Positions 8,572-25,886 of a stretch of 64,000 nt of DNA are shown here, piece by piece. Both the position numbers and the translations under genes were made by a program. The DNA lies in contig CALWHJ010000002.1 in the NCBI GenBank assembly GCA_944380355.1, positions 64,368-128,367 on the forward strand, written 5' to 3'. How positions within the stretch are numbered: the first letter of the stretch is position 1; every line of letters begins with the position of its first letter. Origin of the DNA: an uncultured Christensenellaceae bacterium. Lineage in GTDB: Bacteria > Bacillota > Clostridia > Christensenellales > UBA3700. The notes under the pieces were generated by a model. It saw only the letters and a program-made list of their open reading frames with translations, ran no database searches and had not been told where the DNA came from.

Positions 8572-8597
8572 AATACAACAAAATATAAGGGGCTAGT

Positions 8598-9551: not shown

Positions 9552-10462
9552 TTTCGCTTGGCGCAAGATTCGTCAAAAGCGCGATAAGACTTTTTACTTT
9601 CAAATACAGGCGCAAGCAGGCGTCCGTATCCCGCAACGTACGCATAAAGTACCGCCCTTATAAGTGTCCTGAAGACTTAAATTATACCGAAGAATATTAC
9701 AACGGCGTAAAAGTGCAAATTCTCTCGCCTGAAAATCCTTCGCGTAACAAGATAATATTGCATTTTCACGGCGGTGGCGGTGCGATAGGTATGGACGGAC
9801 TTTTTTACCACAGGGTAGCAGAGAAGTATGCGCGTATTAGTAATACGAAGGTATACAGTATAGATTATAGGGCGGGCAAAGAGGTGGTGCAACCGTCTTT
9901 TCTCGATGAGTGTTTTTTAGCATACAAAGGCTTGCTTGACAGCGGGCTTAAGGGGGAGGATATCGTTGCTGTCGGGGACAGTATGGGCGCAAATCTTATG
10001 CTTGGCGTATTCCTTAAGGCAAGAGACGAAGGGTTGGATATGCCTAAAGCGGCGGTATCCGTATGTGCCTATGCCAACTGCACGGCAAGCGGAGAGTCAT
10101 ACAGAAAAAACTGTCATAAAGACCCTATGTACGCTTTGCCTTTTTATATGAGCGCGGACAAGTATGCAGACAGACTGAGAAGGCTTCCGGCGTATATAGG
10201 CGACTGCGACCCCCGCGACCCGTATATCTCTCCTGCTTTTGCCGAATACAAAGGTTTTCCCAAGATGCTCGTAGTCGTAGGAGATTGCGAAGTGGACGAG
10301 AGCGACAGCGATATGATATACCTCAGGGCAGTCGAGGCAGGAGTAGAAGTCGAATACAAAAAATACAAAGGAATGTTCCACGATTTTTTATACGCCGTCC
10401 CCTTTTTGAAAGAAAGCAAACAAGCGTGGCGCGATATAGAAAAATTCATTGCAGAAGCTTAA
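9548..10462 (+). CDS. Alpha/beta hydrolase, hormone-sensitive-lipase-like esterase
   Basis: A 304-residue alpha/beta hydrolase of the HSL family: the oxyanion motif HFHGGGG is near residue 75, the nucleophile elbow GDSMGA near residue 140, and FHDF near the C-terminus supplies the catalytic His; an Asp in VGDCEVDESD is the likely third residue. It has no clear signal peptide, so it acts inside the cell on a small ester or acetyl group. ATG 9548 overlaps the kinase stop by ATGA. The upstream part of the longer frame (from 9467) lies wholly inside the kinase gene and is not used. Confidence 0.85.
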   Translation: MISLGARFVKSAIRLFTFKYRRKQASVSRNVRIKYRPYKCPEDLNYTEEYYNGVKVQILSPENPSRNKIILHFHGGGGAIGMDGLFYHRVAEKYARISNTKVYSIDYRAGKEVVQPSFLDECFLAYKGLLDSGLKGEDIVAVGDSMGANLMLGVFLKARDEGLDMPKAAVSVCAYANCTASGESYRKNCHKDPMYALPFYMSADKYADRLRRLPAYIGDCDPRDPYISPAFAEYKGFPKMLVVVGDCEVDESDSDMIYLRAVEAGVEVEYKKYKGMFHDFLYAVPFLKESKQAWRDIEKFIAEA

Positions 10463-10492
10463 AGATAATTGACGCGTGCTAAAGAAAAAATA

Positions 10493-10524
10493 AACCCGCT
10501 AAAAAGCGGGTTTTAAGTTTTTTG
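10493..10524. terminator. Bidirectional terminator between convergent genes
   Basis: AAACCCGCT/AGCGGGTTT stem (10493-10501 with 10506-10514), with A-rich sequence upstream and T-rich downstream. It serves the esterase gene (+) and probably the ANTAR gene (-). Confidence 0.85.
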
Positions 10525-10549
10525 AGTTTTGTTAGAGATTTGAAAAGAT

Positions 10550-11134
10550 TTATTTGTATGAACTGATGATATTTTTGGCAATATCGGTTTTGGATAAGCA
10601 TTTGTCCATAGCTTGTTTTTCTATATAGTAGTGTGCGTCTTCCTCGCTCATTTTCAGCGTGTCGATTAGTATCCATTTTGCTCGGTTGACGATACGTATC
10701 TCCTGCATTTTATCTTCGACGGACGAGATGGTTTTTTCAAACTTTCTCAGCTTTTCTCTGAGCGCGCACAGCCAGTCGAGGGCTTGACGGAAACTTTGAG
10801 GCGAAGTGGGTTTGGCAAGTGTAAACACGCCGAAACGGTAGACTTTGGAATACGTTTCGTCATAGAGTTCCTGTCGTATGAGCAGTAGCGTAGCCACGCC
10901 CTTTTCGTTGCTTGCGTCAATGGCGAGTTTCGTGCCGAAATCGTCGAGAAGAGGCGTATTGATTATCAGTAAATCGTAGTGTCTCTCAAGCATGAGTTTT
11001 TTAGCCGACGAGAAACTGGGAGCAAATTCGATGGGTGAAAATTTTGTTTCGGGCAAAAGAGGAGCTAGAGAAGTTTTGAACTTCTCCGATTGAGATGCTA
11101 TGAGAACGCTGTATACTCGCTCTTCGAGTGCCAT
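10550..11134 (-). CDS. ANTAR-domain RNA-binding regulator with pseudo-receiver
   Basis: A 194-residue AmiR/NasR-type regulator. Residues about 125-185 form the ANTAR domain (coiled coil, then three helices with NRAKWILID, MSEEDAHYYIEKQAMD and DIAKNII), which binds paired RNA hairpins and prevents termination in known members. The N-terminal half has receiver-domain shape, but the phospho-acceptor position is Asn (DLLIIN where DLVLLD is usual) and the first acidic pair is missing, so control is probably by protein contact or ligand, not phosphorylation. It begins 27 bases after glnA on the same strand, so it is likely co-transcribed. It is a plausible regulator of the leader terminators at 16367 and 16664, though those hairpins do not show the known ANTAR loop consensus. 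Confidence 0.88.
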   Translation of the reverse strand: MALEERVYSVLIASQSEKFKTSLAPLLPETKFSPIEFAPSFSSAKKLMLERHYDLLIINTPLLDDFGTKLAIDASNEKGVATLLLIRQELYDETYSKVYRFGVFTLAKPTSPQSFRQALDWLCALREKLRKFEKTISSVEDKMQEIRIVNRAKWILIDTLKMSEEDAHYYIEKQAMDKCLSKTDIAKNIISSYK

Positions 11135-11161
11135 ATTTTGCTCCGAATAAGTTTTATGAGG

Positions 11162-12370
11162 TTATCTGCAATAAGCGTCGATGAGAGATTCGGGCAGATG
11201 TTCCTGCACAAACGCGCTTGCTTTTGCCTGTACTTTAGCTTCTTCCAAAGTAGAGGGAAGCCTTTTGAATTCAGCAAGTGCCGCCTTGTCGAGAGTAAAG
11301 AAGTTTACGTCTGCGGGAGGGGGCAAGGGGAGATTGTTCTTCAATCCGTACAGTCCGGCATAGATGAGCAATGCAAACGCCAGATAAGGATTTGCCTCAG
11401 GGTCGGGAGAGCGCAATTCGAGTCTTTTGTATTCTCCTATCGCTGCGGGAATTCTTATAAGCTGCGAGCGGTTTTGAGCCGACCACGAGATATATGCGGG
11501 AGCTTTGCTGTTTCCCAGACGTTTGTAAGAGTCGGCTACGGGATTGAGGAAAAGCGTGATTTCTCCCGTCTTTTCTAAAAGCGCGGGGATTAGCGCATCG
11601 ATAATTTCCTTTCCGCTTTTGTCGCGTACCGACATATTGATATGCAGTCCGTTGCCTGCGCAATTTTCGAGGGGCTTAGGGGAGAAGTCGGCATAAAGCC
11701 CGTTGCGAGCGGCTACCGTCTTGACTACCGATTTGAAGGTTACGGTGTTGTCTGCCGCAGAAAGCGCGTCGGAATAACGGAAGTCGATTTCGTTTTGTCC
11801 GGGGCCTTCTTCGTGGTGCGAGCTTTCGGGACTTATGCCCATCTGCTCTAGCGTAAGACAGATTTCGCGTCTTACGTTTTCACCCTTATCGTCGGGTGCG
11901 ATATCCATATACTTTGCGTTGTCGTAAGGCTCCTTGGTAGGCTTACCGTATTCGTTGAGACGAAAAAGGTAAAATTCCATTTCCGCGCCGAAGTAGAAGG
12001 TGTATCCTAGACTTTTTGCTTGCTCGACGGCTTTTACGAGAAGGCTTCTCGTATCGTTGGTATAAGCTTTTCCGTCGGGATAGGTGATATTGCAAAACAT
12101 TCTCACGACTCTGCCGTGCTCGGGACGCCAGGGCAAAACCGTAAGCGTGGACGGGTCGGGGCGGAGGAACAAATCGGAGTGGACCTCGTCTTCGAAGCCC
12201 TCAATGGCAGAAGCGTCAATGGCTATGCCGTATTCGAAAGCGCGTTTTAATTCGTGGGGCATAACCGATATGTTTTTCTGCACGCCGTAGACATCGCAAA
12301 AGGCAAGACGAATGAATTTGACGTCTTCCTCGGCAACGTATTGCAATACTTCTTCCTTAGAATATTTCAT
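11162..12370 (-). CDS. glnA: Glutamine synthetase type I (short form)
   Basis: Makes glutamine from glutamate, ammonia and ATP. Signature elements are the beta-grasp N-terminus (VKFIRLAFCDVYG), the ammonium/glutamate site HHEEGPGQNEIDFRYSD, GNGLHINMS, and the ATP site NRSQLIRIPA followed by RLELRSPDPEANPYLAFA. At 402 residues it is shorter than the usual 440-470 of GS I, with trimmed C-terminal parts. In the loop that carries the feedback Arg of B. subtilis GS (EGFVRIEESDM), this protein has EGFEDEVHSDL, so the FBGS-type self-regulation may be absent. There is no adenylylation Tyr motif by eye. AAGGAG precedes ATG 12370; the ANTAR gene follows. Confidence 0.96.
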   Translation of the reverse strand: MKYSKEEVLQYVAEEDVKFIRLAFCDVYGVQKNISVMPHELKRAFEYGIAIDASAIEGFEDEVHSDLFLRPDPSTLTVLPWRPEHGRVVRMFCNITYPDGKAYTNDTRSLLVKAVEQAKSLGYTFYFGAEMEFYLFRLNEYGKPTKEPYDNAKYMDIAPDDKGENVRREICLTLEQMGISPESSHHEEGPGQNEIDFRYSDALSAADNTVTFKSVVKTVAARNGLYADFSPKPLENCAGNGLHINMSVRDKSGKEIIDALIPALLEKTGEITLFLNPVADSYKRLGNSKAPAYISWSAQNRSQLIRIPAAIGEYKRLELRSPDPEANPYLAFALLIYAGLYGLKNNLPLPPPADVNFFTLDKAALAEFKRLPSTLEEAKVQAKASAFVQEHLPESLIDAYCR

Positions 12371-12489
12371 AATGTCTCCTTACGCTTTACGGACGAAGTT
12401 GCGACCGTAAAGAAAAATGTATTTTAGAGATACCGATAAAAATATTTCTTATCAGTATTATATATAATTGCCGTCGATTAATCAAATCT
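12371..12489 (-). promoter_or_regulatory. glnA promoter and structured leader
   Basis: On the minus strand a TTGATT-17-TATAAT promoter lies at about 12461-12489. The leader then has two hairpins: an ACTGATAA/TTATCGGT stem and an 8-bp CTTTACGG/CCGTAAAG stem (12381-12408) just before AAGGAG. The second could block or expose the ribosome-binding site. No T-tract follows either hairpin, so any control would be translational or by a bound protein such as the ANTAR regulator (inference). Confidence 0.55.
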
Positions 12490-12540
12490 TTGGGCAATAT
12501 TTTTGTTACAGGAATTTGCGGATAGCAGAGCGTGACATAC

Positions 12541-12932
12541 AAGCGCGCCGCCGTGCGCGCTGTCCGATAACGGGATTTTGGAATTGATTTATTTAATTTA
12601 AACGGTGCAAAATAAGTGAGTGTTCAGGTTTGTATTACGCTTTCTATACCTCGTAAGCGTGGGTATTTTGTCGAGGCTGTCAAATCCGTAATCCGCTTGA
12701 AGACAGTACCGACAAAGGGTTATATTCGCTTGCCGAATATATACCGTTTCGTTTGCGCCGTAATATAGCGGCACGCCTAGCGCCGCTAATATTGTACCCC
12801 CCGTGCGAGCGCGGAGAGTGGTGTGATTTTGCAAATTTCTAGCGGTTGTCACGAGTCCTGAGCGTACTTGCCGTACGTGACGGCGAGTGACGTTCCTAAA
12901 ATTCGCAAAGGCGCGCCGCTATACGCGCTCGC
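12541..12932. repeat. Intergenic repeat element between glnA and gltB
   Basis: About 390 bases without a convincing gene. The left end (12543-12560) and right end (12911-12928) carry near-identical, internally palindromic 18-mers of the form GCGCGCCGC-N4-CGCGC. Inside, 12799-12823 matches 24 of 25 bases with the inverted copy at 63489-63513, and 12862-12881 is close to the inverted copy at 63435-63454. The element is therefore dispersed in the genome. An 84-codon frame inside it on the minus strand starts in the repeat and is probably not a gene. It may be a REP or MITE-like element without its own transposase. Confidence 0.65.
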
Positions 12933-13652
12933 CTAATTTTCGACATACATCTGCTTATAAGGATTCGCGCTATTGGGCGTGACCACAATATATTCACTCT
13001 CCAGCAAAGCTTTTTTGTCTTTGCCGAATACCTTGCAGAATTCTTCCAGATAAGGGAGTATCTCCTGAATATCTTCCTTTGTCGCTTTATGCGTATTTAC
13101 TTGCGAAGGGAAGTCGATTGAATTGTCTGTGGTGCGCAGAAAAACTTTTCCGCCGTGCATACCCGTGCAAGGGAAGTTGCCCACGATTTTTTTGCCGTCG
13201 GTATTCATACCCAGCACGACGATTATACCGCCCGCGAGGTATTCTCCCAGAAAACTTCCGCATCTTCCGCCGATAATCATTACGGGAAGCTTTTGCTTAT
13301 AGGCTTTCATATGAATTCCCGCGCGGTAGCCCGCGTTTCCGTCGACGTAAATTTTACCGCCGCGCATAGCGTAGCCCGCTGCGTCGCCCGTATTTCCGTG
13401 TATGAATATACGGCCTTCGTTCATCGTATCTCCTACTGCGTCTTGCGCGTTGCCGTTGACTACGACGTCCGCACCGTTGAGGTATGCTCCAAGAGCATTG
13501 CCGGGAGTGCCGTTGACGACTATTTCTTTGCCGCTCAGACCCGCGGCTATAAATCTCTGTCCAAGACAGTTGTCTATCTGTACCTGCGAGGCGCATTGCC
13601 TTACGGTATCGTTCAAATCTTCGTTGGTATATTGTGTTGCGTCTATTATCAT
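12933..13652 (-). CDS. Glutamate synthase GXGXG domain subunit (GltB3)
   Basis: A 239-residue stand-alone version of the C-terminal right-handed beta-helix of the glutamate synthase large subunit. The turns repeat G-x-x-x-G signatures (NGTPGNALGAYLNG, NGNAQDAVGDTMNEG, HGNTGDAAGYAMRGG, DGNAGYRAGIHMK), followed by MIIGGRCGSFLGEYLAGG. In the complex it is structural and helps hold the ammonia tunnel. ATG 13652 follows AGGTGA; the longer frame upstream runs into the gltB2 gene and is not used. It is the last gene of a three-gene operon that splits GltB as in archaea. Confidence 0.92.
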   Translation of the reverse strand: MIIDATQYTNEDLNDTVRQCASQVQIDNCLGQRFIAAGLSGKEIVVNGTPGNALGAYLNGADVVVNGNAQDAVGDTMNEGRIFIHGNTGDAAGYAMRGGKIYVDGNAGYRAGIHMKAYKQKLPVMIIGGRCGSFLGEYLAGGIIVVLGMNTDGKKIVGNFPCTGMHGGKVFLRTTDNSIDFPSQVNTHKATKEDIQEILPYLEEFCKVFGKDKKALLESEYIVVTPNSANPYKQMYVEN

Positions 13653-13678
13653 ATTATCACCTGTTGAATGTGCGACGG

Positions 13679-15184
13679 TTATTCTCCCGCGTGGAGTATG
13701 CCGAGAATATCCAGTTCTTTTTGGTTGAGGCCTATGCCTCTGAGCATAAGGCGGTTGCCTTTGAGAGCTTCTATGGAGTTGATGCCCATACCTCCCATAA
13801 TCTCCATTATCTCGTGTTTCCAAGCGGACAGGAGATTGACAAGACGTTTTGCTCCCCATTCGGGGTCAAGACGGCTGACGAGTTCGGGACGCTGAGTAGC
13901 TATACCCCAGTTGCATTTACCGCTTTGACAGTTACGGCAGAGGTGACAGCCCATAGCTATGAGTGCGGCTGTCGCGATATAGCACGCGTCTGCGCCCAGG
14001 GCTACCGCTTTGACTACATCGGCTGCGCTTCTTATACTTCCGCCTGCGATAATGGATACGTCGTTTCTTATGCCTTCGTCTCTGAGTCTTTGGTCAACGG
14101 CGGCAAGAGCGAGTTCGACGGGAATACCTACGTTGTCGCGAATACGGGTAGGTGCCGCTCCGGTACCGCCTCTGAATCCGTCTATCGCGATGATGTCCGC
14201 ACCGCTTCTTGCGATACCGCTGGCGATTGCCGCGATATTGTGTACGGCGGCAACTTTTACGATTACGGGCTTTTTATATTCGGTAGCTTCTTTGAGCGAG
14301 TAAACGAGCTGTCGCAAATCTTCGATTGAGTAAATATCGTGATGAGGTGCGGGTGAGATTGCGTCCGAGCCTTCGGGTACCATTCTGGTACGCGCTACGT
14401 CACCTACGATTTTGGAGCCCGGCAAGTGTCCGCCGATACCGGGCTTTGCGCCCTGACCCATTTTGATTTCGATTGCCGCACCCGCCTGAAGATATTTTTC
14501 GTGTACGCCGAATCTGCCCGAAGCTACTTGTACTATAGTATTTGCGCTGAAAGGGTAGAAGTTTTCGTGCAGACCGCCTTCTCCGGTATTGTAATAAGTA
14601 CCGAGAGCGGTAGCGGCATTTGCAAGGCTTTCGTGAGCGTTGTAGCTTATCGAGCCGTAACTCATTGCCGAAAACATTACGGGCAGCGAAAGTTCGAGTT
14701 GAGGGGGTATATCGCATACGAGTTTACCGTCCTTATCTCTGGTGACGGAGGAGGGTTTTTTACCTAAGAAAACGCGCGTTTCCATAGGTTCTCTCAGAGG
14801 GTCGATAGGAGGATTGGTAACCTGTGACGCATTGATGAGTATTTTATCGAAGTAGGTGGGAAGAGGCTTGGGATTGCCCATAGAGGAGAGCAATACGCCG
14901 CCGCTTTGAGCCTGCTTGTAGATTTCGCGTATGGTATCGTTTTGCCAGTTGGCGTTTTCTTTGAGAGTGCAGTCGCTTTTGACGATTTTGAGGGCGCGCG
15001 TAGGACATACCGAAACGCAGCGCTGGCAGTTGACGCACTTGGTATCGTCGCTCAGCATAATTTTGTTTTTGTCGGAGTAAAAGTGTACGCCGTGAGCGCA
15101 TTGTGTTTCGCATATACGGCAACGCGTACAGCGGGCGTCGTTGCGCACTACTTCGTATTCGGGATATATAAATTCTGCTTGCAT
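13679..15184 (-). CDS. gltB: Glutamate synthase FMN/Fe-S subunit with N-terminal ferredoxin domain (GltB2)
   Basis: A 501-residue archaeal-type glutamate synthase core. Residues about 15-70 form a two-cluster ferredoxin domain (CTRCRICETQC and CVNCQRCVSVCP). The rest is the FMN-binding barrel with MFSAMSYGSISYNAHE, GEGGLHENF, KMGQGAKPGIGGHLPG, SPAPHHDIYSIEDL, GADIIAIDGFRGGTGAAPT, and the 3Fe-4S-type cysteine run CHLCRNCQSGKCNWG. It makes glutamate from 2-oxoglutarate and the ammonia supplied by GltB1. No GltD-like NADPH subunit is encoded in this window, so electrons may come from ferredoxin or from a GltD elsewhere. Its start overlaps the GltB1 stop (TGATG). Confidence 0.94.
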   Translation of the reverse strand: MQAEFIYPEYEVVRNDARCTRCRICETQCAHGVHFYSDKNKIMLSDDTKCVNCQRCVSVCPTRALKIVKSDCTLKENANWQNDTIREIYKQAQSGGVLLSSMGNPKPLPTYFDKILINASQVTNPPIDPLREPMETRVFLGKKPSSVTRDKDGKLVCDIPPQLELSLPVMFSAMSYGSISYNAHESLANAATALGTYYNTGEGGLHENFYPFSANTIVQVASGRFGVHEKYLQAGAAIEIKMGQGAKPGIGGHLPGSKIVGDVARTRMVPEGSDAISPAPHHDIYSIEDLRQLVYSLKEATEYKKPVIVKVAAVHNIAAIASGIARSGADIIAIDGFRGGTGAAPTRIRDNVGIPVELALAAVDQRLRDEGIRNDVSIIAGGSIRSAADVVKAVALGADACYIATAALIAMGCHLCRNCQSGKCNWGIATQRPELVSRLDPEWGAKRLVNLLSAWKHEIMEIMGGMGINSIEALKGNRLMLRGIGLNQKELDILGILHAGE

Positions 15185-16275
15185 CAGTACTTGCCCTCCT
15201 CAACTTTTACTATTACGGGTTCGCCGCCTTCGGGAGCGTAGACGTCTTTTACGTCGGGGCACATAACCCTTATAGCGGCTTCCTCGCTTGCGACATAAAC
15301 CTTGTCGTCTTTTTCGGCGACGACCATCGAGCGTAACTTAAGTCTGTCGTTGAGAGCCATAAGTCCGCCTTCGAAGCCGAGTACGATGGAGAAAGGACCT
15401 GTTACGAGAAGGCTGGAGTACACCGTGCGCAGATACGTGAGTTTTGCTCTTTCTTCGGGGGACTTTTTTGCGATAGTCGACCAGAAAGGCGCGGCGATTA
15501 CGGAAGCGAGTTCGTCGAGAGTCAAGCCCTGTTTTCTCAAAAGGTAATCGGAGATATACGTAATAACTTCCGTATCTGTCTGAAGGGTACATTTGTATCC
15601 GTACATTTCTATAAATCTTCTGTTGGCGTCGTAGGAAGATATTTCGCCGTTGTGGACGATAGTGTAGTCGAGAAGCGCAAAGGGATGCGCGCCGCCCCAC
15701 CAGCCGGGGGTATTAGTAGGATAGCGGCCGTGCGCTGTCCACGAGTAGCCCTCGTATTCGTCGAGGCGGTAGAATTTACCGACGTCTTCGGGGAAGCCGA
15801 CGGCTTTGAAAACGCCCATATTTTTTCCGCTGGAAACCACGTACGCGCCCTTGATATTTATATTGATATGCATTACGGTACGCGCAACGAACTCTCTCTC
15901 GTCGAGTTGCGCGTTGGCAACGGAGGACTTAAGAGGAGCGAGAAAATAGCGGTAAATAATAGGCTCGTCTACGATAGCGGGGATTTTGCGTACGGGAATA
16001 GGCTGCGACTTGACAATTTCGTAGCTTTCTTTGAGATACTGTTCGGTATCTTTTTGTACGCTTCTGTTGTCGAAGAAAAAGTGGAAAGCGTAAAAGTCCT
16101 TGTACTCGGGATAGATGCCGTAGCCGGCGAAGCCGCCGCCTAGGCCGTTGCTTCTCTCGTGCATAGGCACCATACTGTCGACGATGCTTTTGCCGCTCAT
16201 TTTGTTACCCTCTTTGGAAATTACCGCCGCGATGGCGCAACCTGAGGGTATTCTGATTTGACCTTCTGACTGCAT
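15184..16275 (-). CDS. Glutamate synthase amidotransferase subunit (GltB1), class II glutaminase
   Basis: A 363-residue N-terminal nucleophile (Ntn) glutaminase that releases ammonia for GltB2. The start is set by TAAGGAAT before ATG 16275. The likely nucleophile Cys is residue 13 (IPSGCAIAAVIS), so a 12-residue leader would have to be removed, as in PurF and GltB. Later blocks such as GRYPTNTPGWWGGAHPF and VHNGEISSY are the classic glutamine-site motifs. The frame extends upstream to 16380, but that part overlaps the leader terminator and lacks a ribosome-binding site. It is the first gene of gltB1-gltB2-gltB3. Confidence 0.92.
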   Translation of the reverse strand: MQSEGQIRIPSGCAIAAVISKEGNKMSGKSIVDSMVPMHERSNGLGGGFAGYGIYPEYKDFYAFHFFFDNRSVQKDTEQYLKESYEIVKSQPIPVRKIPAIVDEPIIYRYFLAPLKSSVANAQLDEREFVARTVMHININIKGAYVVSSGKNMGVFKAVGFPEDVGKFYRLDEYEGYSWTAHGRYPTNTPGWWGGAHPFALLDYTIVHNGEISSYDANRRFIEMYGYKCTLQTDTEVITYISDYLLRKQGLTLDELASVIAAPFWSTIAKKSPEERAKLTYLRTVYSSLLVTGPFSIVLGFEGGLMALNDRLKLRSMVVAEKDDKVYVASEEAAIRVMCPDVKDVYAPEGGEPVIVKVEEGKY

Positions 16276-16361
16276 AATAAATTCCTTACTCTTTAATTTA
16301 CTCTGTTTGACCGCTGAGAGTATGTGCGATGCAGTGTCGCTCACAAAACTTTGGCGGTATG

Positions 16362-16454
16362 AAAAAAAGCGCTCATTCAAAAGGACGCGATGTCCTCTGA
16401 ATGAACGCCTTTGCTCATTACGGAAATTTTAGCATAAGATAGGTGGGCTGTCAA
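16362..16454 (-). promoter_or_regulatory. gltB promoter with promoter-proximal terminator (attenuator)
   Basis: On the minus strand, TTGACA (16454-16449), 17-bp spacer and TAAAAT (16431-16426) put the start near 16419. About 7 bases later begins a long hairpin (16412-16369): outer stem of GGCGTTCATTCA type, inner AGGAC/GTCCT, loop of 5, followed by seven T. The stop signal lies about 90 bases before the gltB1 ATG, so most transcripts should end unless something prevents it. Between it and the ATG lies a further hairpin (TGTG-GCGA/TCGC-CACA type). Confidence 0.8.
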
Positions 16455-16617
16455 CAAACTGGACGATTTTTTTGAAAATTTTAAAAGATGCAGAAATTTC
16501 CGTATTCTTGATGAATACGCGCAATAGTACTGAATAAAATATAATACACACGTGCGAGAAGCACAGGACGTATTGGAATTATTTGAATAATTGCACGAAA
16601 AAAATATTCAAAAACCG

Positions 16618-16705
16618 TTGACAAGATATGCCGATGCGAGTATAATTCAACTAACAAAAGGCAAAGGTGTCTTTGAGAATTCACTCAGAGGCACCTTATT
16701 TTTTT
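16618..16705 (+). promoter_or_regulatory. asnB consensus promoter with promoter-proximal terminator (attenuator)
   Basis: TTGACA (16618-16623), 17-bp spacer, TATAAT (16641-16646): a perfect promoter. Start is near 16653. A 14-bp stem (16664-16677 with 16684-16697, G-T pairs allowed) with the six-base loop AATTCA is followed by seven T (16699-16705). The asnB ATG is 130 bases further on. A second long stem (AGTATTTTCC near 16720 with its complement near 16770) lies between. The arrangement mirrors the divergent gltB leader. Confidence 0.8.
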
Positions 16706-16837
16706 ACCTTTCGGCATAGAGTATTTTCCTTGAAAATGGCGCGAAGCGGTACAGGCAAGAGCGCGGGGAAAATGCTGATAAAATTAATATTCGTTCGCTC
16801 AGGCGATGGATAAATAAATTAAAGAGAGTAGAGAATT

Positions 16838-18415
16838 ATGTGTTCGATTATGGGTTACTGCGCAGAGGGCGCAGACAAAGAATTGTTCAAACAGTGTTTT
16901 GACCGCACCATATCGAGAGGCCCCGACGATACGCGAATAGTGGATACGGGCAAGGGACTTCTCGGTTTTCACAGACTTGCTATAATGGGTCTTTCACCCG
17001 AGGGTATGCAACCCTTCGAACTCAACGGTAATTACTGCGTATGCAACGGCGAACTTTACGGTTATGAAAAAGTAAAGAGCGAATTGTCGCGAGAATACAC
17101 ATTTAAGAGCGGCAGCGACTGCGAAATCATCTTGCCTATGTACGAAAAGTACGGCACAGATATGTTTGCTATGCTCGACGCGGAATTTGCGTGCATAATT
17201 TACGATGCTAAAAAAGGCGGTTACATTGCGGCGCGCGACCCTATCGGCATAAGACCTTTGTTTTACGGCTATGACGACAAGGGCGTAATCGTTTTTGCAA
17301 GCGAAGCAATCAACTTAATGGGGCTTGTAAAGGAAATAATTCCTTTCCCTCCCGAACATTTTTATTGCGACGGACAATTTATTAGGTACTCAAATGTTGC
17401 CAAACCCGACAAAAAGTGCTATGATAGTATAGAAAAAATTTGCGATAACATCCGCGAAAAACTTACGGCGGGCATAGAGAAGCGACTCGTTGCCGACGCA
17501 AAGGTAGGTTTCTTGCTCAGCGGAGGACTCGATTCCTCTCTCGTATGCGCTGTTGCCGCAAAGAAATCCGACAAGCCTTTGCGTACTTTTTCGATAGGTA
17601 TGAGTACGGACGCTATCGACCTCAAGTATGCAAAACAGGTAGCCGATTATATCGGCAGCGAGCATACGGAAGTCATCATAGACAAGTCCGACGTACTCTC
17701 CTCGCTCGAGAAGGTAATCAAAATTCTCGGTACTTTCGATATTACTACGATAAGAGCGAGCATAGGTATGTATCTCGTATGTAAAGCAATACACGAGACT
17801 ACGGATATAAGAGTATTGCTTACGGGAGAAATCTCCGACGAGCTTTTCGGATACAAATATACGGACTTCGCGCCTTCTGCAGAAGCTTTCCAGCAAGAGG
17901 CGGAAAAGAGAATCAGCGAGCTTTATATGTACGACGTCCTAAGAGCGGACAGATGTATATCCGTCAACTCTCTTGAGGCAAGAGTACCTTTCGGCGATTT
18001 GGATTTCGTCAAATACGTTATGTCGGTAGACCCCGAGAAAAAGCTCAACAAGTACAACAAGGGTAAATACCTTTTGCGTAAAGCTTTCGAAGGCGATTAT
18101 CTTCCTTACGATATACTCTACCGCGAAAAAGCGGCTTTTTCCGACGCGGTAGGTCACTCGATGGTAGACTATCTCAAGGAGTATGCCGAGAGTCAGTATA
18201 CCGACGAAGAGTACGAAGAGAAGCGCAAGAAATATACGCATGCGACGCCTTTTACAAAAGAGTCGCTTTTGTACAGAGAACTGTTTGAAAAATATTACCC
18301 CGGTCAGGGACGTATGATAGCCGACTTCTGGATGCCCAACAAGTCCTGGGAAGGCTGCGACGTCAACGACCCCTCTGCGAGAGTATTGTCCAACTACGGC
18401 GACAGCGGAAAATAA
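16838..18415 (+). CDS. asnB: Asparagine synthase (glutamine-hydrolysing)
   Basis: Makes asparagine from aspartate, glutamine and ATP. The Ntn nucleophile is Cys2 (MCSIMGYC), followed by RGPDDTR, FHRLAIMG and the glutamine-site CNGELYGYE. The synthetase half has the PP-loop LLSGGLDSSLV near residue 230 and the GEISDELFGYKY block. Length (525) is normal for the bacterial AsnB short form. AAAGAGAG-type Shine-Dalgarno precedes ATG 16838. The transcript begins with an intrinsic terminator (16664-16705), suggesting antitermination control. guaA follows after 77 bases with no clear terminator between. Confidence 0.95.
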   Translation: MCSIMGYCAEGADKELFKQCFDRTISRGPDDTRIVDTGKGLLGFHRLAIMGLSPEGMQPFELNGNYCVCNGELYGYEKVKSELSREYTFKSGSDCEIILPMYEKYGTDMFAMLDAEFACIIYDAKKGGYIAARDPIGIRPLFYGYDDKGVIVFASEAINLMGLVKEIIPFPPEHFYCDGQFIRYSNVAKPDKKCYDSIEKICDNIREKLTAGIEKRLVADAKVGFLLSGGLDSSLVCAVAAKKSDKPLRTFSIGMSTDAIDLKYAKQVADYIGSEHTEVIIDKSDVLSSLEKVIKILGTFDITTIRASIGMYLVCKAIHETTDIRVLLTGEISDELFGYKYTDFAPSAEAFQQEAEKRISELYMYDVLRADRCISVNSLEARVPFGDLDFVKYVMSVDPEKKLNKYNKGKYLLRKAFEGDYLPYDILYREKAAFSDAVGHSMVDYLKEYAESQYTDEEYEEKRKKYTHATPFTKESLLYRELFEKYYPGQGRMIADFWMPNKSWEGCDVNDPSARVLSNYGDSGK

Positions 18416-18492
18416 CCGTATGCCGCGAGTGACTGCCCGCGGATGCCCAACCGTAAACAAGGCGCAAGCCTGATATTTTAAAGAGGATAAAT

Positions 18493-20022
18493 ATGGAAAA
18501 AGTACTGGTACTTGATTTCGGCGGACAATATAATCAGCTTATTGCCCGCAGAGTAAGAGAACAAAACGTTTACGCAGAGATTAAGCCCTACAACAAAATC
18601 ACTCCCGAAGAGATTAAGAAAGAGGGCTACAAGGGCATTATTTTCACAGGCGGTCCCAACAGTGTTTACGAAGAAAAATCTCCCCGTTGCAGCAAGGAGG
18701 TTTTACATCTCGGTATTCCCGTATTGGGAATTTGTTACGGCGCGCAGCTTATCGCTTATCTTGAGGGCGGCGAGGTATGCAAAGCCGACAATATCAGCGA
18801 ATACGGCAGAGTACGTCTCGAAGTTAAGGAAGACACACTTTTCGAAGGTGTGCCTTCTTTCAGTGAATGCTGGATGAGTCATACCGACTACGTCAAGGTA
18901 TTGCCCGAGGGCTTCGAGGTAACTGCTACTACCGAGCATTGTCCCTGTGCCGCTATGAGCAACGGCAAGGATATTTACGCCGTGCAGTTCCACCCCGAGG
19001 TAACGCATACCGTTTACGGCAAGAGCGTATTGCACAACTTCCTTTTCGGAGTATGCAAATGCAAGGGCGACTGGCAAATGGCGGATTTTGCCAAGGAAGC
19101 GATTGAAAATTACAAAAAACAGCTTGCGGGCAAGAAGGTGCTGTGCGCGTTGAGCGGCGGCGTGGATTCTTCGGTAGCGGCTGTGTTGTTGCATAAAGCG
19201 ATAGGCGACAATCTGACCTGCGTATTTGTCGACCACGGTCTTTTGAGAAAGGACGAGGGCGATATGGTAGAGAAGATTTTCAAAGAGCGATTCAATATGA
19301 AAATCATCAGAGTAAACGCAGAAGATTTGTTCCTCGCAAAGCTCAAGGGCGTAACAGAGCCTGAGAAGAAGCGCAAGATAATAGGCGAGGAATTTATAAG
19401 AGTATTCGAAAAAGAAGCCAAGAAGATAGGCAAGGTAAATTATCTCGTACAGGGTACCATTTATCCCGACGTAATCGAGAGCGGAGCGGGAGACGCGTCC
19501 ACGATAAAGAGCCATCACAACGTAGGCGGACTTCCCAGCGTAATAGATTTTGACGAGATTATCGAGCCTTTGAGAATGCTATTCAAGGACGAAGTAAGAG
19601 CCGTAGGTACGGAGCTGGGCATACCCGCAGATTTGGTATGGCGTCAGCCTTTCCCCGGTCCGGGTCTTGCGATAAGAGTTATCGGCGAAATAACCAAAGA
19701 GAAGCTGGATATTCTGCGCGAAGCGGACGCTATTTTCAGAGACGAAATCAAGCGTGCCGGACTCGAGAAAATTACCAATCAGTATTTTGCCGTACTTACC
19801 GACAGCAGAAGCGTAGGCGTAATGGGCGATGCGAGAACTTACGGTTACACGGTTGCATTGAGAGCGGTTACGACGGACGACTTTATGACGGCTGACTGGA
19901 CCAAACTTCCTTACGAAGTACTCGACAGAGCCAGCAACAGAATTACCAACGAAGTGAGAAGCATAGGAAGAGTAGTTTATGACGTCACTTCCAAACCCCC
20001 CGCAACGGTAGAGTGGGAATAA
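18493..20022 (+). CDS. guaA: GMP synthase (glutamine-hydrolysing)
   Basis: Converts XMP to GMP. The N-terminal class I amidotransferase has GICYGAQL (nucleophile Cys) and QFHPEVTHT (His-Glu of the triad). The ATP pyrophosphatase part has the P-loop [14 protein letters not shown] near residue 220, and the dimerisation domain ends in [11 protein letters not shown] as in all GuaA. Length 509 is typical. AAAGAGGA precedes the ATG. It sits between asnB and purF, and a terminator follows. Confidence 0.97.
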
Positions 20023-20025
20023 GAG

Positions 20026-20054
20026 CGCAAGCGGATTTATCCGCCTGCGTTTTT
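20026..20054 (+). terminator. Intrinsic terminator between guaA and purF
   Basis: Stem CGCA-A-GCGGAT with ATCCGC-C-TGCG (20026-20049), two-base loop and T5. Confidence 0.85.
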
Positions 20055-20128
20055 CGCGATTTAAAGCAATAACATACGCAAAAGAAAGAGTAAAAGGAAA
20101 GAGTAAAAGGAAAATCGGAGGAGTTAAT

Positions 20129-21559
20129 ATGCAAGGAGAAGTCAACGAGGAGTGCGGAGTATTCGGTATATTCGCGCCCGCTCCCTCTAACGTGGCAAAG
20201 TACGTATACTACGGTTTGTACGCGCTTCAGCACAGAGGTCAGGAGAGTTGCGGAATAGTAGTCAACGATGACGGCATTTTCAAATCGCACAAGGATTTGG
20301 GACTCGTCAACGAAGTTTTCAACAAGGACGTAATGGCAAGACTTCCGCAGGGCAAAATCGCAGTAGGACACGTAAGATACGGCACTACGGGAGCGACCAA
20401 CCGTAACAACTGTCAGCCTATCGAGGTTAACCACAGAAAGGGAAGAATAGCTATCGCGCACAACGGAAATCTTTCCAACGCTTACAACTTGAGAGAGCAG
20501 CTCGAGATGACGGGCGCGATTTTCCATACAACTTGCGATACCGAGATAATAGCTTATCTTATTACGAAAGAAAGACTTACCGCGCCTTCTACCGAGAAGG
20601 CTTTGAGCGAGGTTTTCAACAAAATCGAAGGAGCGTATTCGCTCGTACTTATGACCCCCACGAAACTTATCGCGGCGAGAGACCCTCAGGGCTTCCGTCC
20701 TCTTTGCTACGGCATAACGCCCTCCAACGCGTACATAGTCGCGTCTGAGAGCTGCGCGCTCAAGGCAGTAGGCGCGAAGTACGTGAGAGATATAGAAGCG
20801 GGAGAAATAGTAGTATTCGACGACGAAGGCGTACATTCCAACCGCACGCATTGCGGCAAGAATAAAAAGTTGTCGAGGTGCATATTCGAGTACATTTATT
20901 TTGCGCGCCCCGACTCGGTGATTGACGGCGTTTCCGTACATAAGTCGAGAGAAAAAGCGGGACAGTTGCTTGCAAAGGCACACCCCGTCGAAGCTGACGT
21001 AGTAATAGGAGTACCCGATTCGGGGCTTGACGCCGCACTCGGTTACAGCAAGCAGTCGGGAATACCTTACGGTATAGGATTTATCAAAAACAAGTATATC
21101 GGCAGAACGTTTATCACGCCCGGACAGGACGACAGAGCAAATCTCGTCAACATTAAACTCAATCCCATTTCGGACACCGTAGACGGCAAAAGAGTAGTGC
21201 TTATAGACGACTCGATTGTCAGAGGTACGACAAGCAGACGTATAGTTACGCAGCTGAGAATGGCGGGAGCAAAAGAGATACATATGCGCATATCCGCGCC
21301 TCCTTTCCTCTATCCCTGCTATTACGGCACGGACATAGATTCGAGAGAAAACCTCATTGCGGTCAATCACTCGGTAGACGAAATCTGCAAGATGATAGGA
21401 GCCGACAGTCTGGGATATCTGTCCTTCGAGGATTTGAGCAGACTCATAGATTCGGACGATTTCTGTGCGGCTTGTTTCTGCGGAGATTACCCTACGAAAG
21501 TTTACGAGGGAAAGAAAGACAGGTTTGAGAGAAAACTTTCCGAAAAAGAAGACGACTGA
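20129..21559 (+). CDS. purF: Amidophosphoribosyltransferase
   Basis: First step of purine synthesis: PRPP plus glutamine to phosphoribosylamine. The nucleophile is Cys9 after an 8-residue leader (NEECGVFGIF) that is normally cut off. The glutaminase has GHVRYGTTG and AHNGNLSNA; the PRPP site is VVLIDDSIVRGTTS. FCAACFCGDYPTKVY near the C-terminus matches the cysteine pattern of the 4Fe-4S, oxygen-sensitive B. subtilis-type enzyme, in line with an anaerobe. GGAGG lies just before ATG 20129. No other pur genes are beside it; its neighbours are other glutamine users. Confidence 0.96.
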   Translation: MQGEVNEECGVFGIFAPAPSNVAKYVYYGLYALQHRGQESCGIVVNDDGIFKSHKDLGLVNEVFNKDVMARLPQGKIAVGHVRYGTTGATNRNNCQPIEVNHRKGRIAIAHNGNLSNAYNLREQLEMTGAIFHTTCDTEIIAYLITKERLTAPSTEKALSEVFNKIEGAYSLVLMTPTKLIAARDPQGFRPLCYGITPSNAYIVASESCALKAVGAKYVRDIEAGEIVVFDDEGVHSNRTHCGKNKKLSRCIFEYIYFARPDSVIDGVSVHKSREKAGQLLAKAHPVEADVVIGVPDSGLDAALGYSKQSGIPYGIGFIKNKYIGRTFITPGQDDRANLVNIKLNPISDTVDGKRVVLIDDSIVRGTTSRRIVTQLRMAGAKEIHMRISAPPFLYPCYYGTDIDSRENLIAVNHSVDEICKMIGADSLGYLSFEDLSRLIDSDDFCAACFCGDYPTKVYEGKKDRFERKLSEKEDD

Positions 21560-21562
21560 CGA

Positions 21563-21592
21563 TTGACAAATTATCGGAAATACGGATATAAT
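21563..21592 (+). promoter_or_regulatory. carAB promoter
   Basis: TTGACA (21563-21568), 18-bp spacer, TATAAT (21587-21592), 24 bases before the carA ATG. No attenuator is seen in the short leader. Confidence 0.8.
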
Positions 21593-21616
21593 CATTAGAA
21601 AAAATAGAGAGGAAAT

Positions 21617-22711
21617 ATGAAGGAATTCGACGCAAAGATAGTTTTTGAAGACGGTACGGAATACTACGGTTACGCTTTCGGCGCGAAAGAGCAGAAAGTT
21701 ACGGAGTTGGTATTCAATACTTCTATGGCGGGTTATCAGGAGATACTGTCAGACCCGTCTTATACCTACCAGACTGTAGTTATGACTTATCCGCTCATAG
21801 GCAACTACGGTATGACTTCGTGGGATTACGAAACCAAGACACCCACGATAGGCGGACTTGTCGTAAGAGAATACAACGATTTTCCCTCCAACTGGGGTAG
21901 CGTAGAGTCGCTCGGCGAAGTAATGGAAAAATACGGTGTTACGGGTATATCGGGTATAGACACGAGAAAACTGACGAGAAGAATACGCGATTTGGGAAGC
22001 TGTAAGATTTTGACGACCGCGGCTTCGACTCCTCTCGACGAGGCATTGAAAATACTCGCAAGCACCGACGTGCCCAGGGACGGCGTATCAAAAGTAAGCT
22101 GCAAAAAAGCGTGGGAGAGCAAGGCTCAGGACGCGGCTTACAAGGTAGTCGCCGTGGATTGCGGAATAAAGCACAATATTATCCGCTCGCTCAACAAGAG
22201 AGGCTGCGACGTGGTAGTCGTGCCTTGGAATACTACGGCTAAGCAAATCGAGGCTATGCGACCCGACGGAGTATTTTTCTCCAACGGTCCCGGAGACCCC
22301 GAGGACGTAGTACCCGTAATCAACCTCATAAAAGAAATCAAAGGCAAGTATCCTATATTCGGAATATGCCTCGGTCATCAGCTCATCTCGCTTGCTTACG
22401 GGGCCAAGACCTACAAACTCAAATTCGGACACAGAGGCGGCAACCATCCCGTCAAGGACTTGAAGACGGGCAAGATAGAGGTTACGGCGCAAAACCACTC
22501 TTACGCGGTTGACGCGAAGAGCGTGGGAAAAACCGACCTTACGGTTACGCATATGAATATTCTCGACAATACGGTAGAGGGCGTAGAGTGCGTCAAAGAC
22601 AATATCTTCAGCGTGCAATACCACCCCGAGAGCTGCCCCGGTCCTCAGGACAGCGCGTACTTGTTCGACAAGTTTATAAGAAATATAGAGGAGGGTAAGA
22701 AAAATGCCTAA
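21617..22711 (+). CDS. carA: Carbamoyl-phosphate synthase small (glutaminase) subunit
   Basis: A 364-residue class I amidotransferase that feeds ammonia to CarB. The N-terminal CPSase_sm domain shows [17 protein letters not shown]; the triad is in FGICLGHQL (Cys) and [12 protein letters not shown] (His, Glu). GAGAGGAA precedes the ATG. The stop overlaps the carB start by 8 bases, so translation is coupled. Carbamoyl phosphate serves pyrimidines and arginine; no pyr or arg gene is adjacent. Confidence 0.97.
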
Positions 22712-25700
22712 GCGTACGGATATAAAGAAAGTTCTTGTTATAGGCAGCGGACCTATCGTAATAGGTCAGGCGGCAGAATTCGACTATGCGGGTACGCAGG
22801 CTTGTCTTGCGCTCAAAGAGCAGGGCTACGAAGTAGTGCTTTGCAACTCCAACCCCGCTACCATAATGACGGATACGTCGATAGCCGACAAGGTGTATAT
22901 GGAGCCTTTGACGCTCGAGTATCTTGCTAAGATAATAAGATTCGAGCGTCCCGACGCGATTATACCGGGTATAGGCGGACAGACGGGACTCAACCTTGCC
23001 ATACAGCTAGAGAAGAAAGGCGTACTCAAGGAGTGTCGCGTAGAGCTTCTCGGTACGGACGTCAAGAGTATAGAAAGAGCCGAGGACAGAGAGCTTTTCA
23101 AGGAACTTTGCGAAAGTCTCGGTGAACCCGTGCTTCCTTCGCAGATTGCTAATACTATCGAAGAGGGTCTCGAGGCGGTAGAGAAGATAGGCTACCCCGT
23201 AGTGCTTCGTCCCGCGTTTACGCTCGGCGGTACGGGCGGCGGCTTTGCCGACAACGAAGAGGAGTTTTTGGAGATTATCAAAAACGCTTTGAGTTTGTCC
23301 CCCGTGCATCAGGTACTCGTCGAGAAGAGTATCAAGGGCTACAAGGAAATCGAATATGAGGTTATGCGTGACGCCAACGATACGGCTATCGCGATATGTA
23401 ATATGGAAAACATCGACCCCGTAGGAATACACACGGGCGACTCCATAGTAGTATGTCCCTCGCAGACTCTGACCAACAGAGAATATCAGATGCTGAGAGA
23501 CAGCGCGCTCAAGATAATAAGAGAACTCAAGATAGAGGGCGGCTGCAACGTGCAATTCGCACTCGACCCCAAGTCCTTCCAGTATTATCTCATCGAGGTA
23601 AACCCCAGAGTTTCGCGTTCGTCCGCGCTTGCTTCCAAGGCGAGCGGATATCCTATCGCGAGAGTTTCCGCACAGATAGGCATAGGAATGAACCTCGACG
23701 AAATTATGCTTGCCAATACCCCCGCGTCATTCGAGCCTTCGCTTGACTACGTGGTTACCAAGATGCCCCGCTTCCCCTTCGATAAGTTTGCCGACGCCAA
23801 CAACAAGCTCGGTACGCAGATGAAAGCTACGGGCGAGGTAATGAGCGTAGGCAGAACGATAGAGGAAAGCTTGCTCAAAGCTATACGTTCGCTAGAGATA
23901 GGCGTATATCACATGTATATGCCCAAATTCGACACGATGAGCAGAGACGAGCTTTTGCAATATATCTCTATCGGTACGGATGACAGAATATACGCAATCG
24001 CTCAGCTTTTGAGAATGGGCGAGAGCATAGACAGAATAGCTCATATCACCAAGATTGACGAGCTGTTTGTCCGCAAATTCAAGAATATCGTAGACGAGGA
24101 AAAGAAACTCACGGCAAACGTAGGCAATCCAGACGTGCTTAAAGAAGCCAAGAAAATGGGCTTCTCAGATAAGGCTATTGCCAAGTTCTGGCAGATGAAA
24201 GAAATCCAGGTCAACAAGCTGAGAAAGGACAACGGCATTGTTCCCGTATACAAGATGATAGACAGCTGCGCGGCAGAGTTCGACAGTTATATTCCTTACT
24301 TCTATTCGACCTACGAGGAGGAAAACGAATCCAAGGTTTCGGATAAGAAAAAGGTCGTCGTGCTCGGCAGCGGTCCTATACGTATAGGTCAGGGCGTGGA
24401 ATTCGACTATTCGACCGTGCACGCAGTAAAGACTATAAAGAGGTCGGGTTTCGAGGCTATAATAATCAACAACAACCCCGAAACCGTATCGACCGATTAC
24501 ACCACGGCGGACAAGCTGTACTTCGAGCCTTTGTGCACCGAAGACGTAATGAACATTATCGAGATGGAAAAGCCAATCGGCGTAATAGCTTCTTTGGGCG
24601 GTCAGACGGCAATCAACCTTGCCGAATCGCTTATGGAGAGAGGTGCGAAGATTATAGGTACGGATTGCGACGCTATCGAAAAGGCAGAAAACCGCGACGC
24701 GTTCGAAAAACTGCTTTTGTCTTTGAATATACCTCAGCCTAAGGGCAGAGCCGTAACCAAGATAGAAGACGGACTTCAAGCCGCTAAAGAGATAGGCTAT
24801 CCCGTACTCGTACGTCCCAGCTTCGTACTCGGCGGCAGAGCTATGAGAATAGTCGCCGGCGAAGAACAGCTCAAACATTATCTCAAGACGGCAGTTGAAA
24901 TCGACGAGGATAAGCCCGTACTCGTAGACAAGTATATTCAGGGTAAGGAAGTCGAGGTTGACGCGGTATGCGACGGCAAGGACGTATTCGTTCCCGGCAT
25001 AATGGAACTCGTAGAGCGTACGGGCGTACACTCGGGCGACTCGATAAGCGTTTACCCCACGTTCAGCATTAGCGACAAGGTCAAGAAGACGATTATAGAT
25101 TACACGCAAAAGCTCGGCAAGGGCATAGGTATCGTGGGACTTTACAATATACAGTTCATCGTCGACAAGGACGACAACGTATATATTATTGAGGTAAATC
25201 CCCGTTCGTCGCGTACGGTGCCTTTCCTCTCGAAAGCTACGGGTTACGATTTGGCGGATATCGCTACTCTCGTAATACTCGGCAAGAGCCTTAAAGAACA
25301 GGGCTACGCAATCAGCTATCCTCCCGAGAAAAAGAGATGGTACGCAAAAGCTCCCGCTTTCTCCTTCTCCAAATTGAGAGGTATGGACTCCTATCTGTCT
25401 CCCGAGATGAAATCTACGGGCGAGGCAATAGGCTACGACAAGGCACTCAACAGAGCATTGTACAAGGCTTTGCAGGCGTCGGGCGTAAAGGTGCAGAATT
25501 ACGGCACGGTACTCGCTACCATTGCCGACAACGACAAGCCAGAAGCTTTGCCTTTGATTAGAAGATTCTACAACTTAGGATTCAATATCGAGGCTACCGA
25601 GGGCACGGCTAAATTCCTCAAAGAGCACGGCATCAAGACCCGTCCCCGCAAGAAGATAAGCGACGGTTCGACGGATATTCTCGACTCTATACGTCAGGGC

Positions 25701-25886
25701 TACGTAACCTACGTTATCAATACCCGCGACGTAAGTGCGGAAAACAAAATGGCAGACGGTTCGGCAATCCGTCAGTGCGCTATCGAAAACAACGTTACGG
25801 TGTTCACCGCACTCGATACGGTAAAAGTACTGCTTGACGTACTCGAAGAAATTACTATGAGCGTTTCGACTATAGACGCAGAATAA
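22704..25886 (+). CDS. carB: Carbamoyl-phosphate synthase large subunit
   Basis: A 1060-residue protein made of two homologous ATP-grasp halves. Each begins with [21 protein letters not shown] or the similar [20 protein letters not shown], and holds GGTGGG- or GGRAMR-type ATP-grasp loops and an IEVNPR metal-binding motif. The N-half phosphorylates bicarbonate, the C-half carbamate; an oligomerisation domain joins them, and an MGS-like allosteric domain (from about residue 935) closes the protein. AGGAGGG lies before ATG 22704. The length is normal. Confidence 0.97.

Follow-up and report, generated by a model that had tools for sequence, protein, structure and literature searches.

The leaders of gltB1 and asnB, two divergent genes in the window (the whole 64-kb stretch of DNA analysed here), are very probably attenuators, off by default, that represent a one-hexaloop form of the established ANTAR antitermination switch. 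As far as the sequences go, each leader has two mutually exclusive folds, a small stem that covaries among relatives, a near-constant loop and no second hexaloop; such leaders are associated with ANTAR genes and nitrogen genes, and the element is widespread in Clostridia. Binding of an ANTAR protein and antitermination itself are suggested by co-occurrence and gene neighbourhood, and the transcription start sites are predicted.

Layout of the locus and folds of the two leaders

The two genes are transcribed away from each other, gltB1 on the minus and asnB on the plus strand, with gltB2, gltB3, glnA and an ANTAR gene on the gltB side. A preliminary description of this DNA had reported that both transcripts start with a consensus promoter followed at once by an intrinsic terminator, and that glnA and an ANTAR gene lie nearby; the following features bear out both statements:

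10550–11134, minus strand: ANTAR protein with a pseudo-receiver domain, the predicted likely binder (PF03861, 6e-14), directly downstream of glnA
11162–12370, minus strand: glnA, glutamine synthetase (PF00120, 7.7e-89; PF03951)
12933–13859, minus strand: gltB3, GXGXG part of glutamate synthase (PF01493); open reading frame as listed, a later true start being probable
13679–15184, minus strand: gltB2, ferredoxin and synthase part of glutamate synthase (PF01645)
15184–16275, minus strand: gltB1, class II glutamine amidotransferase part of glutamate synthase (PF00310); start codon taken as the ATG at 16275, from the translation
16362–16412, minus strand: gltB intrinsic terminator, stem 16412–16369 plus U-tract, its 5' arm overlapping the antiterminator hairpin
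16401–16418, minus strand: predicted gltB antiterminator hairpin ATGAGC-AAAGGC-GTTCAT, hexaloop 16412–16407 with A1 and G4
16426–16454, minus strand: gltB promoter TTGACA-17-TAAAAT (11/12, TG before the -10 box; promoter scan), kept in relatives
16618–16646, plus strand: asnB promoter TTGACA-17-TATAAT (12/12; promoter scan)
16657–16674, plus strand: predicted asnB antiterminator hairpin AAAGGC-AAAGGT-GTCTTT, hexaloop 16663–16668 with A1 and G4
16664–16705, plus strand: asnB intrinsic terminator, stem 16664–16697 plus T7, its 5' arm overlapping the antiterminator hairpin
16838–18415, plus strand: asnB, glutamine-hydrolysing asparagine synthase (NF006949, 1.3e-181)

The two promoters are among the top three promoter matches in 8000–24000. 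Since shuffled versions of this stretch have 19.1 +/- 4.2 promoter-like sites and the real one has 31, lone weak promoter matches mean little. Regarding the terminators, the scan detected 14 pairs, a 6-base loop (AATTCA) and T7 for asnB, while the gltB terminator, with its 5-base loop (ATCGC) and T7, is plain in the sequence though absent from the scan list, and folds at about -29 to -33 kcal/mol with flanks included.

Upstream of and partly within each terminator, a small hairpin can form, reading AAAGGC-AAAGGY-GUCUUU in RNA on the asnB side and AUGAGC-AAAGGC-GUUCAU on the gltB side. Its hexaloop AAAGG(C/U) carries in both leaders the A at position 1 and G at position 4 that are the signature of ANTAR target RNAs as described in PMC3369931. 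The loop and 3' half of this hairpin overlap the terminator 5' arm, so that the two folds exclude each other, and the 5' half of the small stem sits outside the core terminator stem in the window. When forced, the small hairpins fold at -7.0 (asnB) and -13.9 kcal/mol (gltB), compared with -21.9 and -29.4 kcal/mol for the respective terminators. The terminator is thus more stable, and the small hairpin should win only when held by something. In the asnB loop, position 6 is a U, which is able to pair with A1. The preliminary description had judged the apical terminator loops, found them unfit for an A1/G4 hexaloop and considered the signal to be possibly new; it is the 5' arm, in its alternative fold, that supplies an A1/G4 hexaloop, and the real departure from the ANTAR motif is that there is only one.

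Conservation, covariation and a single hexaloop

A DNA search of 149 genomes, including the one that contains the window, resulted in matches in 27. In the closest relative found, promoter and hairpin were 99% (asnB) and 95% (gltB) identical, and the first 120 nt of the coding sequences 98% and 94%, compared with 73% and 63% for the remaining leader and 69% and 59% for the 100 nt upstream. In other families of the order, promoter-hairpin modules precede gltB and, divergently, glnN (type III glutamine synthetase), which occupies the place of asnB. Terminator 5' arms are nearly constant, with few changes from AAGGCAAAGGYGTCTTTGAG on the asnB/glnN side and ATGAGCAAAGGCGTTCATT on the gltB side. 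Apical terminator loops vary between species in sequence and length and were therefore rejected as the signal. Further hairpins between terminator and start codon, proposed earlier as part of a shared design, were likewise rejected, since they are not conserved; the start codon follows about 25–50 bases past the terminator in several other genera, though a few leaders are longer.

For a wider search, a covariance model (R1) was built from 18 sequences with pairs for the terminator only, the 5' flank being included as unpaired. R1 matched 52 of 297 genomes of the order (E ≤ 0.1) in 35 of 125 genera, yielding 161 match rows over both strands. After mirror strands, the L062 copies in L098 and weak rows had been dropped, 90 rows were inspected, one strand per site chosen by eye. 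In 70 of these, a promoter of at least 9/12 was found directly upstream together with the hexaloop hairpin. The remaining 20 had no such promoter; 11 of them lacked the hairpin as well and nine carried it, namely four second modules of tandem leaders and five that were left out. A promoter of at least 9/12 was thus seen in 0/11 rows lacking the hairpin, compared with 83/4000 random positions in the same loci. R1 seed genomes contribute 21 of the 70 promoter-bearing leaders. In the leaders at L058/L061 (about 1501–1551), the terminator is an almost perfect palindrome, so that both strands match the model.

Though the model contained no pairs for it, the small stem covaries. In 43 distinct hairpins, 93.0% of cells were paired (74.0 +/- 1.7% after shuffling), and 62 cells showed double changes, compared with 19.1 +/- 7.4 in shuffles (0/500 reached 62) and at most 15 when the partner was slid. 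After removal of the R1 seed genomes, 31 distinct hairpins still revealed 90.3% paired cells (71.2% shuffled, maximum 77.4%) and 44 double changes (13.6 shuffled, maximum 27). The notion of paired attenuators on two nitrogen genes in the preliminary description is supported: they are conserved in further families of the order, and throughout the phylum such attenuators stand ahead of nitrogen genes. In the loop, the script demanded A1 and G4, which every promoter-bearing R1 row had; the other positions in the 70 leaders are A at position 2 (70), A51/G7/T7/C5 at position 3, G67/A3 at position 5 and C63/T7 at position 6. A free position 3 between near-constant neighbours fits the expectation for a protein that reads the loop.

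The described ANTAR RNA motif consists of two hexaloop hairpins joined by a short linker (PMC3369931), a pair that these leaders do not have. Their hairpin lies 4–19 nt past the -10 box (median 9.5; at least 14 nt in 8/70 promoter-bearing leaders), which leaves no transcribed room for an upstream first hairpin (P1), if the predicted starts are right. Since R1 had no promoter requirement, the 5'-terminal position of the hairpin is a result and not an assumption, whereas a second model (R2, built from 46 of the candidate sequences and comprising promoter and small hairpin, no terminator) and an exact-pattern scan do require a promoter. Within 45 nt downstream, a second hexaloop was detected in 3/70 leaders, no commoner than in shuffles (3.5%). 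In a few leaders, a complete module including a terminator is followed by a second one; such tandem pairs of hexaloop-terminator modules were seen ahead of glnN in L064, L067, L062/L098 and L095.

A predicted ANTAR partner, the proposed mechanism and its rivals

ANTAR genes were found in 46/52 genomes with an R1 match and in 86/245 others (p 6e-13). For R2, the counts were 80/93 vs 52/204 in the order (p 2e-23) and 30/33 (counted by eye) vs 172/365 in the phylum (p 6e-7), all three p values being uncorrected for shared ancestry. An ANTAR gene was undetected in 13/93 R2-match genomes at E ≤ 0.05 and in 1/46 at E ≤ 0.001. R2 matches were absent from 52/132 ANTAR genomes of the order, which may in part be explained by the strict filters. 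In the genus of the window, three of seven genomes (G007, G004, and G001) have an ANTAR gene and neither an R1 nor an R2 match, the proteins of G007 and G001 being of a diverged ANTAR type. A second glnA-linked ANTAR protein type (ELKLVDRAKCLLI type) occurs in species of this genus (L224–L228); three of these five genomes also carry the type of the window, and the single match in G007 and G001 is of the ELKLVDRAKCLLI type.

The ANTAR gene of the window is the sole ANTAR match in its own genome (96.9% complete). Overall, glnA was present in the fetched stretch of 50/63 ANTAR loci, including 30/32 loci picked mainly from element-bearing genomes and genus mates; the other 30 are those that scored best for ANTAR in the order, some of them EutV-like proteins that have no glnA nearby. 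The predicted structure of the window protein (mean pLDDT 90) had as nearest solved folds EutV, alone and with RNA (6wsh/6ww6), Rv1626 and AmiR, in line with the matches by sequence. It thus appears to share the fold of the EutV/REC-ANTAR regulators (PMC8934654), with a TM score of up to 0.76 to 6ww6, and it carries their ANTAR domain. In 38 aligned sequences, with residue numbers matched to EutV by inference from a separate alignment, the equivalents of EutV Lys149 and Glu160 are invariant, the G4-stacking Tyr164 is replaced by an invariant His, and Arg142 is not kept. Further differences from EutV are the position beside glnA and an Asn instead of the phospho-acceptor Asp (Asn59 in the window protein; Asn in at least 90% of the 38 sequences). 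The receiver domain is therefore probably not phosphorylated, and, judging from its sequence, the pseudo-receiver is probably not switched in that way; by eye, no kinase gene was found beside the ANTAR gene in the window. A protein or ligand signal is likely, for which the adjoining glutamine synthetase would be the obvious candidate partner by analogy with the GS-GlnR circuit (PMC9249791).

Based on these observations, we propose the following mechanism. RNA polymerase would start at the sigma-A promoter and first make a 5'-terminal hairpin of mostly 4–8 pairs carrying the hexaloop A-A-N-G-G/A-C/U. The longer and more stable intrinsic terminator would then re-use the loop and 3' half of this hairpin as its 5' arm, so that, unaided, the transcript would stop at about 50–60 nt. 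An active ANTAR protein, encoded beside glnA, would bind the single hexaloop, hold the small hairpin and block the terminator, allowing transcription of gltB or asnB. The switch would read glutamine or nitrogen status via the pseudo-receiver partner, perhaps the neighbouring glutamine synthetase. That nitrogen shortage, rather than plenty, opens it is the simpler guess; the regulon mixes glutamine-making and glutamine-spending enzymes, which makes the polarity of the signal ambiguous.

Several other explanations were weighed against this single-hexaloop switch. Hairpins at the extreme 5' end can act alone, as promoter-proximal partial terminators or RNA-stabilising stems, and constitutive structures of this kind would need no switch; we consider this quite improbable, since it leaves unexplained why the small stem covaries with its 5' half outside the core terminator stem, why the loop is near-constant around a free position 3, and why an ANTAR gene goes along with it. 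Glutamine-related targets and action at the transcript level would also suit a protein-free attenuator that reads glutamine or another metabolite directly, such as a riboswitch with a glutamine-type aptamer. However, the conserved part is an 18-nt hairpin whose presence tracks ANTAR genes, and the Rfam comparison proposed in the preliminary description, glutamine riboswitches included, gave no family in either leader at curated thresholds (the whole window gave a tRNA only). Searches up to E 5 resulted only in chance matches of the leaders to eukaryotic snoRNA and miRNA families, and those of a wider stretch at E ≤ 2 only in a snoRNA and an sRNA match well under the cut-offs. A direct metabolite sensor is thus very improbable, and a glutamine riboswitch, a T-box or another known leader RNA was rejected for want of an Rfam match.

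Many gltB leaders have an ATG at the predicted start or close to it; there, ATGAGCAAAGGCGTTCAT could be read as a leaderless short reading frame (MSKGVH...) and the leader as a leader-peptide attenuator. This is extremely unlikely: ACGAAC, GTGAAC or ACGGGC replace ATGAGC elsewhere with the pairing kept, an ATG start occurs in only 14/85 of the pattern set (among the matches listed), and by eye the frame continues differently between species. The reading frame was rejected, as it is not kept across leaders. A classical two-hexaloop ANTAR leader, with a true start further upstream and hence an overlooked first hairpin, has in its favour that, by eye, the 5' arm agrees with 11/13 positions of the eut consensus of Enterococcus, AGCAANGRRGCUY (PMC3369931). 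It is nevertheless very unlikely in view of the short distance between promoter and hairpin in the 70 promoter-bearing leaders, with which a P1 of at least 12 nt plus linker would begin before the predicted start.

The preferred reading, a switch with one hexaloop, has its closest known counterpart in the ANTAR dual-hexaloop RNAs of E. faecalis eut, K. oxytoca nasF and P. aeruginosa amiE as described by Ramesh 2012 (PMC3369931). Common to both are an A1/G4 small hairpin that re-uses the 5' arm of an intrinsic terminator, and thus overlaps and excludes it, as well as the link to nitrogen genes and an ANTAR gene in the genome; in contrast to the two hexaloops with a short linker there, one is found here, at the very 5' end of the transcript, on a stem that is mostly longer (the search in that study had a minimum of 3 pairs). 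EutV antitermination needs two hexaloops and their spacing (PMC3369931; PMC8934654), so a single hairpin could bind without antiterminating. As reported in the EutV structural study (PMC8934654), the minimal ANTAR site was redefined as a single hexaloop, a EutV dimer has to touch both hexaloops if termination is to be prevented, and further bioinformatics was called for on the role of single hexaloops.

An ANTAR gene within a glutamine synthetase/glutamate synthase cluster is likewise described for nitR of Clostridium acetobutylicum and Clo1313_2030 of C. thermocellum, the expression of the latter following its GS/GOGAT cluster (PMC4676874); the portion of that paper available describes no hexaloop or leader structure. 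In the GS-GlnR circuit of Gram-positives, a regulator gene is also paired with glutamine synthetase (PMC9249791). GlnR, however, is a DNA-binding repressor, whereas the regulator here has an RNA-binding domain and its link to glutamine synthetase consists solely of gene adjacency. In the titles and abstract openings searched, a set that largely leaves aside subscription journals, we found no single-hexaloop attenuators on glnN, gltB or asnB.

As a tentative extension, possible rather than probable, we suggest a phylum-wide glutamine-economy regulon of Clostridia in which an ANTAR protein that needs no phosphorylation is signalled to by the neighbouring glutamine synthetase and, by binding one hexaloop on the RNA emerging from the polymerase, opens terminators close to the promoter. 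If true, this would be an RNA-level counterpart of the GS-GlnR circuit, and one hexaloop would be enough for antitermination. Apart from this extension, the leaders described here make up a sizeable natural collection of predicted single-hexaloop attenuators, which at about 50–60 nt in the window are of a length suited to direct in vitro testing. They also suggest a regulon by which numerous Clostridia would control how they assimilate ammonium and use glutamine, and they extend the candidate ANTAR targets by asnB, purF, guaA and pyrG; none of the four is named in the passages of PMC3369931 compared here, and the target list there is non-exhaustive.

Distribution and target genes

R2 revealed matches in 93/297 genomes of the order and 50/125 genera (E ≤ 0.05), and in 33/398 genomes of the phylum and 28/267 genera (E ≤ 0.02, own genome included); E-values of R1 and R2 are rough, and many of the genomes are draft assemblies. 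Among 39 R2 loci examined, 36 were readable (L158, L179, and L189 were left out), and all 36 showed the hairpin with an overlapping terminator-like stem, a count that has no shuffled control; L150, L153, L160 and L162 were already among the 70 leaders described above.

Altogether, 106 promoter-plus-hairpin rows corresponded to 102 distinct sites. Gene classes were assigned by BLAST and from the longest open reading frame that begins no more than 700 nt away; at least one row (L055) was misread. The next long open reading frame was glnN in 43 sites, glutamate synthase in 37, asnB in five, gdhA (NADP glutamate dehydrogenase) in four, and purF and pyrG (CTP synthase) in two each, while guaA, an ammonium transporter (amt), the amino acid carrier agcS and purB occurred once each and five sites were ambiguous or misread.

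An exact-pattern scan of named genomes with a fixed loop core and closing C-G pair hit at least 119 stretches; at least 80 loci were listed, containing at least 87 matches. Among the matches listed, 70/85 readable ones had a stem of at least 4 pairs, compared with a mean of 25.1 and a maximum of 38 when partners were shuffled; with two already-seen sites removed, the numbers were 68/83 vs a mean of 24.6 and a maximum of 35. An overlapping terminator accompanied 69/70 of these stems and 7/15 of the shorter ones, again among the matches listed. Record titles in this listed set include Lachnospiraceae, Oscillospiraceae, Ruminococcus, Agathobaculum, Pectinatus brassicae and Blautia schinkii, and two are Bacteroidales genera, for which misbinning is possible. 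Classes among the 85 listed matches were glnN (35), gltB (11), amt-like (6), purF-like (3), glnA-like (3), and asnB, guaA and gdhA (1 each), with 24 lacking a class. When nine of the proteins (eight without class) were compared with Pfam, two were asparagine synthetase A and the others included citrate synthase and an ABC ATPase; some have no clear nitrogen role. Short-stemmed matches that lack a nitrogen gene appear to be chance hits, so that some of the 85 would not be real. By weight, the target set is a glutamine and ammonium regulon.

A wider regulon in the own genome of the window was rejected: the core pattern GCAAWGGNGTY gave 17 matches, compared with 7 for the reversed pattern; by eye, only the asnB and gltB leaders among the 17 have promoter and terminator, and R1 and R2 with their strict filters detected only these two there. 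Downstream of the asnB leader, asnB, guaA, purF, carA and carB follow in series on the plus strand (16838–25886), all encoding glutamine-dependent enzymes and all except asnB named by eye, and these genes with the leader ahead may form one glutamine-spending unit. In the gap between guaA and purF, a strong hairpin followed by TTTTT (20026–20054) would divide such a unit, and by eye this hairpin has no ANTAR hexaloop. Immediately ahead of carA (21563–21592) lies another sigma-A promoter with a perfect match (12/12, spacer 18); the scan lists no terminator after it.
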